Shown here: positions 25,173 through 64,000 of the stretch, piece after piece
Position numbering within the stretch: the stretch's first letter is position 1
Layout: every line of letters begins with the position of its first letter
Origin: Tetradesmus obliquus
Lineage: Eukaryota; Chlorophyta; Chlorophyceae; Sphaeropleales; Scenedesmaceae
Assembly: GCA_030272155.1 (NCBI GenBank)
Contig: CP126205.1
Coordinates: 2,964,501 to 3,028,500, forward strand
DNA: 64,000 nucleotides
Direction: 5' to 3'
The notes under the pieces: generated by a model
Seen by the model: the letters and a program-made list of their open reading frames with translations, nothing else
Database searches by the model: none
What the model was told of the DNA's origin: nothing
Translations under genes and position numbers: made by a program

Positions 25173-25260
25173 TCAGCCCAGTGGCTGCAGGTGCTGGTGA
25201 GGTGCCCTGCCTGAAATGGTTGCCAGCCTCCCAGAGCCCACAGCAGCAGCAGCATCCTCA
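24771..25260 (-). repeat. Tandem copies of the giant gene's stop-codon end
   Basis: The segment coding SGRLATISGRAPHQHLQPLG and flanking sequence recurs at about 25,030-25,110, 24,910-25,000 and, partly, 24,771-24,810. The spacer containing AGTGCTCACAGCAATTAGCG is also repeated. Units are roughly 110-125 bp. This is the same arrangement as at the permease 3' end. Confidence 0.8.

Positions 25261-64000: not shown

Follow-up and report, generated by a model that had tools for sequence, protein, structure and literature searches.

How does a green alga come to carry a gene whose layout recalls animal polycystin-1? The question is raised by a stretch of 64,000 nucleotides of Tetradesmus obliquus (C15:2,964,501-3,028,500, in a searched genome of 104.7 Mb and 17 contigs), here called the window, in which one minus-strand gene appears to join leucine-rich repeat (LRR) modules, immunoglobulin-like (Ig-like) domains, a stalk and a polycystin channel. 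Animal polycystin-1 likewise sets an adhesive LRR and Ig-like ectodomain on a polycystin channel, one with a non-standard pore. Our answer, which we hold to be probable, is that the algal gene encodes an MST3-like polycystin subunit that lacks the first membrane helix, S1, bears an LRR and Ig-like ectodomain and, once completed by the protein SIP, serves a PKD2 channel as anchor or regulatory subunit. What carries this reading, as far as the letters can tell, is the order of the domains, the missing S1, the loss of the acidic filter residue, the kinship with MST3, the PKD2 and SIP homologues of the same genome and, by computed models, the unity of the gene. In the direction of transcription, the parts of the gene in the window are as follows.

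61473..62815, minus strand: LRRNT_2 cap and first LRR exons in the window (62815-62517, 62239-62066 and 61839-61473, compatible in phase)
44777..55050, minus strand: further LRR exons and the linker exon 54412-54285 (from Pfam, the splice model and caps read by eye)
44538..44777, minus strand: border between the LRR part and the next segment, a 238-bp intron with donor AAG/GTGAGG and acceptor TTACAG/GTACC
39400..44538, minus strand: unclassified extracellular segment between the LRRs and the Ig-like domains
34683..39376, minus strand: Ig-like domains of PF16403 type, collinear with the homologues P0001, P0002, P0003 and P0007
31522..34682, minus strand: Ser/Ala-rich stalk, probably helical (hydropathy scans)
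29900..31521, minus strand: polycystin (TOP) ectodomain, starting NRVIGGLFLHTTR (PF20519; alignment to MST3)
28090..29896, minus strand: membrane helices S2-S6 and pore (hydropathy), with the filter region LLGLGYV, not LGD/LGE
25173..28090, minus strand: cytosolic C-terminal tail of low complexity, with the stop codon at 25175-25173

The channel part is visible both to family profiles and to hydropathy. On the spliced letters PKD_channel scores 27.4 bits (cut-off 22.4) and Polycystin_dom 17.6 bits, under its cut-off of 23.6; P0001, which is 49% identical over the TOP-channel part, passes the latter at 24.2. The TOP ectodomain, which aligns with MST3 from residue 6321 onward, is the only and best place in the genome for PF20519, though below cut-off. 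Hydropathy of the TOP-channel part gives five membrane helices, S2 to S6, the last of them weak (1.61), and nothing resembling S1 between stalk and TOP in the window gene, in P0001, P0002, P0003 and P0007, or in the two paralogs g1 and g2, whose predicted proteins have no segment of 1.6 or more before TOP. Hydrophobic segments before S2 are missing from P0001, P0002 and P0007, and P0003 has a single weak one, far upstream, P0004 two and P0008 one; P0005 is too divergent to read. As a positive control, the canonical PKD2 on C11 of the same genome shows a clear S1 (1.97). At the filter, LGLG of the window stands in the alignment against LGE of the C11 PKD2 and LGD of PKD2L1. The preliminary description of this stretch had called the pore PKD2-like, a label that a filter reading LGLG and a missing S1 do not bear out. 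A further protein, P0006 (ENA, 1174 amino acids), likewise shows no S1-like segment before TOP, yet it groups with the PKD2-type rows of the tree below, and S1 may therefore have been lost or truncated more than once.

To which known protein is this gene closest? A profile of five homologues, searched against the PDB, finds MST3 (9b4h_X) at E 1.3e-74 and 255 bits, followed by PKD2L1 at 3e-12 (49 bits), PKD1L3 at 4e-5 (26 bits) and PKD1 at 0.6 (12 bits); a profile of the window gene, g1 and P0001 gives MST3 E 4.8e-51 and 177 bits, PKD2L1 1e-4 and 24 bits, and PKD1L3 16 bits. In a tree of 13 rows (midpoint root only, three long-branch rows, PKD2L1 filling 31% of the columns, no PKD1 rows), ten rows including the window gene, g1, g2 and MST3 are split at 100/98 from the three PKD2-type rows, namely the C11 PKD2, PKD2L1 and P0006. 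The window gene is sister to P0001 (97/96), the pair is joined by g1 and g2 (100/100) and then by Volvox and Gonium (98/97), and MST3, P0004, P0005 and P0008 fall into a group (97/96) with unresolved branching. By both measures, the closest relative of solved structure is Chlamydomonas reinhardtii MST3, and not PKD2 or polycystin-1.

MST3 (Cre06.g309951, PDB 9b4h chain X), a mastigoneme shaft protein, is not only the best PDB match of the family and on the same side of the tree, but also shares with the window gene an S1-less PKD-like domain of TOP, S2-S4 and pore, as well as a huge extracellular N-terminus. What sets the two apart is that the window gene has LRR modules and Ig-like domains and no poly-proline shaft; the poly-proline repeats by which MST3 binds MST1 were not found in the in-window model, where prolines number at most 6 per 20 residues. 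In paralog g2, one stretch has 11 prolines in 20 residues. The PKD domain of MST3 is described as devoid of S1, of two TOP helices and of an Ig-like domain, the missing piece being encoded by SIP, and the proposal is that MST3:SIP assembles with three PKD2 subunits (PMC11015965). The same source reports seven other C. reinhardtii proteins that are S1-less, completable by SIP and endowed with large extracellular regions, and the labels given for their domains in the legend of its Fig. S7 include LRR (PMC11015965). These seven resemble the window gene in their large extracellular region and incomplete PKD domain; compared by that legend only, they differ from it in that all but one have poly-proline regions (PMC11015965). 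The earlier remark, by which ectodomains of this sort are missing from algal PKD2 proteins, may hold for PKD2 itself, but not beyond it, MST3 and the seven S1-less proteins having been published. Canonical PKD2 (C11:558926-572688 in T. obliquus; PKD2 and PKD2L1 in animals) shares the TOP and S2-S6 fold, and has both an S1 and an acidic LGD/LGE filter, neither of which the window gene possesses.

Both partners of an MST3-like subunit are encoded in the T. obliquus genome, PKD2 on C11 and a SIP homologue on C2. When the N-terminal piece of PKD2 was used as genome query, it found, besides itself, one place, C2:5,272,264-5,272,488 (50% identity, E 5e-13). The local model there has about 330 amino acids, one hydrophobic segment (1.68) and a VWKDPVCGDSRCEAPWEF stretch; an RRLL motif lies near its C-terminus, and searches of PDB and Pfam with it gave nothing useful. 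Published SIP, for comparison, has 361 residues and a single membrane helix and resembles the N-terminus of PKD2 (PMC10846610). The TOP-channel part as query returned, among the best 25 candidates scored, at least three S1-less loci (the window, g1 and g2) and, weakly, the C11 PKD2. In Chlamydomonas, sip mutants lose the PKD2-mastigoneme complexes from their cilia and swim more slowly, and SIP is reported from a range of green algae, among them Scenedesmus sp., itself listed with species apparently unable to form cilia (PMC10846610). Would the product then have to act elsewhere than in a cilium? We considered an argument of this kind, that the genome has no ciliary genes and the role is hence non-ciliary, and rejected it in view of exon-level genome matches to dynein heavy chain (21) and to radial spoke protein (5); since these indicate that ciliary machinery has been retained, the role may be ciliary.

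How certain is it that all of this is one gene? The curated splice model runs from 62,815 to 25,173 in the window with 45 exons and 5,461 codons; all 44 introns are GT-AG, the frame is nowhere broken and the single stop is at 25,175-25,173. The 43 exons and 5,372 codons first counted on this strand, with GT-AG junctions throughout, are thereby confirmed in substance, although the phase fit is partly a matter of choice. Namely, the curated model is an ab initio splice model, computed with fixed splice parameters and blind to gene starts and ends, which was then adjusted by homologues and splice scores; phase agreement was reached by setting the starting phase and adding the linker exon 54412-54285, whose splice sites are good. 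Because exons were picked to fit the phase, the open frame alone is no independent proof, and the independent support is homology. In particular, P0001 (2,281 amino acids, EukProt; 52% identity over the searched region) matches the exons from 39.85 to 26.2 kb one by one at the splice sites of the model, the exceptions being 31,750-31,455, which is backed by P0002, and two small C-terminal exons without support. Part of the tail (26426-26181) is conserved in P0001 as well. With Gonium P0007 (27.6% identity, E 3e-18) the collinearity reaches about 44.5 kb, the segment 39400-44538 aligning with it at 27.6% and 28.3% identity. As they are collinear with P0001 and P0007, the post-LRR segment, Ig-like domains, stalk, TOP and channel belong to one gene.

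The join between the LRRs and this next segment is a separate matter, for which a public prediction and a paralog are informative. GenBank OEZ86_009906 (P0009; 'GP46-like surface antigen' in UniRef) represents this gene from the LRRs to the first Ig-like part, with 100% identity to the window in the best local alignment, and it uses the identical junction at the LRR border. It spans 53.6-38.8 kb, skips parts of several exons of the curated model and stops at 38,783, because it reads through a splice donor; for the same reason the channel is absent from it, and among the scored candidates of 966-8,435 amino acids there is no public model for the channel part. Paralog g2 (C15:2,230,000-2,211,768, minus strand, the upper end being the limit of the stretch examined), which lies on the same contig as the window gene and g1, has LRR, Ig-like domains and channel in this order. 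Its LRR exons (best match E 2e-14) precede the Ig-like domains and channel, and one predicted exon, 2,225,273-2,224,918, starts in the LRR phase and continues into the next segment, where the match to the window is weak (36% identity, E 0.003). Paralog g1 (C15:2161687-2174507) consists of Ig-like domains and a channel with a signal-like start. In matching blocks its DNA is about 74-96% identical to that of g2, of which it seems to be an incomplete copy; LRR and early segments are missing from the stretch examined, and it may have gained a signal peptide of its own. All in all, we regard the evidence for a single gene across the LRR border as good, albeit computed; collinearity, g2 and the P0009 junction favour the single gene ordered LRR, Ig-like, stalk, TOP and channel that had been proposed. 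As to the same order in homologues, it is seen from 39.85 kb in P0001 and from about 44.5 kb in P0007, but not for the LRRs.

The extracellular side is only partly assigned to families. On the spliced LRR part, LRRNT_2 scores 35.6 bits (cut-off 20.7), LRR_1 90.6 (20.6) and LRR_8 63.9, also above its cut-off; judged by this LRRNT_2 cap followed by LRR_1 and LRR_8 repeats, the LRRs are plant-type, in accord with the preliminary description. Three more LRRNT-like caps, read by eye, start at about 54088, 51493 and 47149, of which the one at 51.5 kb reaches 17.6 bits with LRRNT_2, below the cut-off. The proposed Ig-like repeats hold for 39.1-34.7 kb, where PF16403 matches fall in four exons (39.1, 38.4-38.1, 37.5 and 34.7 kb), two of them above cut-off, and not for 44.5 to about 39.4 kb, where Pfam finds no match. 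What is more, 115 of the 117 N-glycosylation sequons lie before S2: there are 69 in the LRR part against 24.6 expected by shuffle and 39 in residues 1914-3720 against 15.7, while after S2 there are 2 against 2.2. Such a distribution fits an extracellular N-terminal side, as the absence of S1 requires. The gene seems to run on for some 14 kb upstream of the window, since a hydrophobic, signal-like stretch followed by LRRNT-like sequence lies beyond its edge, at about 78.1 kb if the window numbering is continued.

How might such a subunit work? A putative signal upstream of the window would take the chain into the endoplasmic reticulum, and the LRR modules, Ig-like domains, stalk and TOP would all come to lie outside the cell, the first membrane crossing being at S2. 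SIP would bind and provide, in trans, the missing S1 and part of TOP, and the completed subunit would most likely substitute for one of the four PKD2 subunits (3:1), in which it would supply no normal selectivity filter. At the cell surface, the ligand of the glycosylated LRR/Ig arm, be it the cell wall, the cilium coat or a partner cell, could tether or gate the channel, which might in this way sense force or ligand.

That said, a number of observations weigh against this reading. Every splice model of the gene is computed, with exons selected for phase fit, and P0009 is itself a GenBank prediction, several exons of which depart from the curated model and which stops short of the channel. LRRs are recognised by Pfam in none of the seven larger homologues (P0001-P0005, P0007 and P0008; for P0005 by a precomputed field), nor are there any in the 7 kb upstream of g1 that were examined. 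P0001 alone finds nothing in the PDB at E 0.01, so that the match to MST3 requires a profile, and the structure predicted for the TOP-channel part of the Gonium protein, with a mean pLDDT of 41, is unusable. As regards topology, the post-LRR segment, far upstream of TOP, contains weak hydrophobic segments (1.63-1.77), and stalk and TOP have no significant excess of sequons (5 against 3.6 and 2 against 0.8 by shuffle). Finally, P0004 and P0008, which belong to the MST3 group and are nearer to MST3, retain GD at the filter, from which it follows that the filter loss is no trait of the family as a whole.

Would other explanations account for the locus equally well? One could claim that separate neighbours, a secreted LRR protein or several of them and an Ig-polycystin gene from about 44.5 kb down, have been merged only by prediction. 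The lack of recognised LRRs in the seven homologues would agree with this, as would the start of Gonium P0007 near the LRR border and the example of g1, with its signal-like start and LRR-free upstream sequence. However, the border is a mere 238 bp, in which neither an in-frame start nor a TGTAA poly(A) signal was found (TGTAA is present in many introns and is not decisive as a marker of gene ends); P0009 crosses it, and g2, with its domains in the same order, has a predicted exon that bridges it. In addition, P0001, P0003 and P0007 look truncated at the N-terminus, since their aligned parts are preceded by just 2, 9 and 37 residues. We therefore find two or more genes improbable. It is also unlikely, in our estimate, that the gene is a decaying allele or pseudogene whose LRR part was broken by a retroelement. 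A young insertion of 5.9 kb does sit in an LRR intron and numerous partial exon copies lie in introns; yet the element is intronic and antisense, the frame is open over the full curated length with every intron GT-AG, and the dN/dS ratio between g1 and g2 is 0.39 (596 codons, six exon pairs), which marks the family as constrained, though the window copy is not covered by that figure.

The two other alternatives concern what the protein is and what it does. That algae hold a true or ancient relative of polycystin-1 (PKD1) would explain the LRR N-terminus, the Ig-like domains, the big ectodomain and the polycystin channel with its degenerate filter, in all of which the window gene is like animal polycystin-1. 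We nevertheless judge it very improbable: the sequence match to PKD1 and PKD1L3 is far weaker than that to MST3 in either profile, there are five membrane helices and not eleven, and REJ, GPS/GAIN and PLAT were absent from Pfam scans of P0001, P0002, P0003, P0004, P0007, P0008 and the window pieces scanned (spliced 1914-3976 not being scanned as one piece). With these domains not found and a different membrane topology, the protein is no member of the polycystin-1 family, even if it may work like polycystin-1, and its form was most likely reached by convergence. In other words, between the independent fusion and the ancient polycystin-1 relative initially offered as alternatives, the former is the better reading and the latter is disfavoured by the closeness of MST3 and by the tree. 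A less distant possibility, to which we give a real but minor chance, is that the protein is a structural anchor only, tethering a surface or ciliary structure to PKD2 without sensing or gating, as proposed for mastigonemes. The loss of the acidic filter residue and the phenotype of sip mutants in Chlamydomonas (PMC10846610) speak for it; the LRR and Ig-like make-up of the ectodomain, with no poly-proline shaft, speaks against it. Counted on the same side is the filter itself, when seen more widely: non-standard filters are known in regulatory PKD1-type subunits too. On balance, we retain the SIP-completed, MST3-like anchor or regulatory subunit as the best explanation.

The preliminary description had overlooked not only the absent S1, the non-PKD2 filter and the upstream extension, but also the insertion just mentioned, which together with other features of the window is as follows.

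55430..61349, plus strand: tyrosine-recombinase (YR) type retroelement, presumably Ngaro/PAT-like DIRS, inside an LRR intron and antisense to the gene
64052-63483, 61551-61349, 55401-55192, 32600-32050, 30134-30033 and 27157-26824: copies of exon pieces
20466-24139, minus strand: glutamine-rich open frames just downstream, probably a separate gene, with no family match above cut-off

The retroelement lies between the LRR exons at 61,473 and 55,050, amid a small tandem array of exon-tail copies. It has split direct repeats (A1 55430-55613, B1 60723-60906, A2 60906-61088, B2 61166-61349) that are 99.5-100% identical, and the insertion is recent. We take its class from the layout of these repeats and a tyrosine-recombinase-like motif; it gives weak reverse transcriptase and RNase H-like Pfam matches, below cut-off, and its recombinase has no family match. 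A 1.3-kb probe from it found nine full-length places in the genome including the window (eight at 98-100%, one at 91%), three of them clustered on C13. As for the exon pieces, short tandem copies, often with splice donors, flank the true exon at about six places, and a partial copy of the S2 exon is also found in g1. Exons 27,157-27,071 and 26,892-26,824 are tandem near-copies of each other, the former with a weak acceptor, and may both be unused. The raw ab initio output gave a minus-strand gene from 55.3 kb down, a minus-strand LRR stretch at 78-61.3 kb and a plus-strand unit between them. The automatic model extended to 20,466, but was trimmed at 25,173, because the frame ends there and homology stops at 26.18 kb. 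A self-trained gene finder whose intron rate was left free collapsed into thousands of tiny exons and was dropped.

What does the locus add to the biology of these proteins? S1-less PKD proteins with acquired ectodomains are a kind already published; new here are the other algal order and an ectodomain of LRR and Ig-like domains without a poly-proline shaft, and in the one open-access library searched we found no other description of such an LRR-Ig S1-less protein. It also emerges that the public model of the gene stops before the channel. Tentatively, one can picture that, once S1 had been split off as SIP, green algae were able to evolve receptor-channels shaped like polycystin-1 on a path separate from that of animals, and that in Tetradesmus, a mostly non-motile coccoid, the LRR-Ig version, present in three copies of which one has no LRR arm, is a sensor of the cell surface or cell wall outside mastigonemes. 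With this gene it can be tested directly whether subunits besides MST3 are completed by SIP. Most of all, the parts list of the split polycystin of Chlamydomonas cilia, that is PKD2, SIP and a giant S1-less subunit, is complete in an alga of the Sphaeropleales, with a different ectodomain, and algae would have reached a polycystin-1-like form not by adding helices but by losing one, as is proposed for MST3 (PMC11015965).
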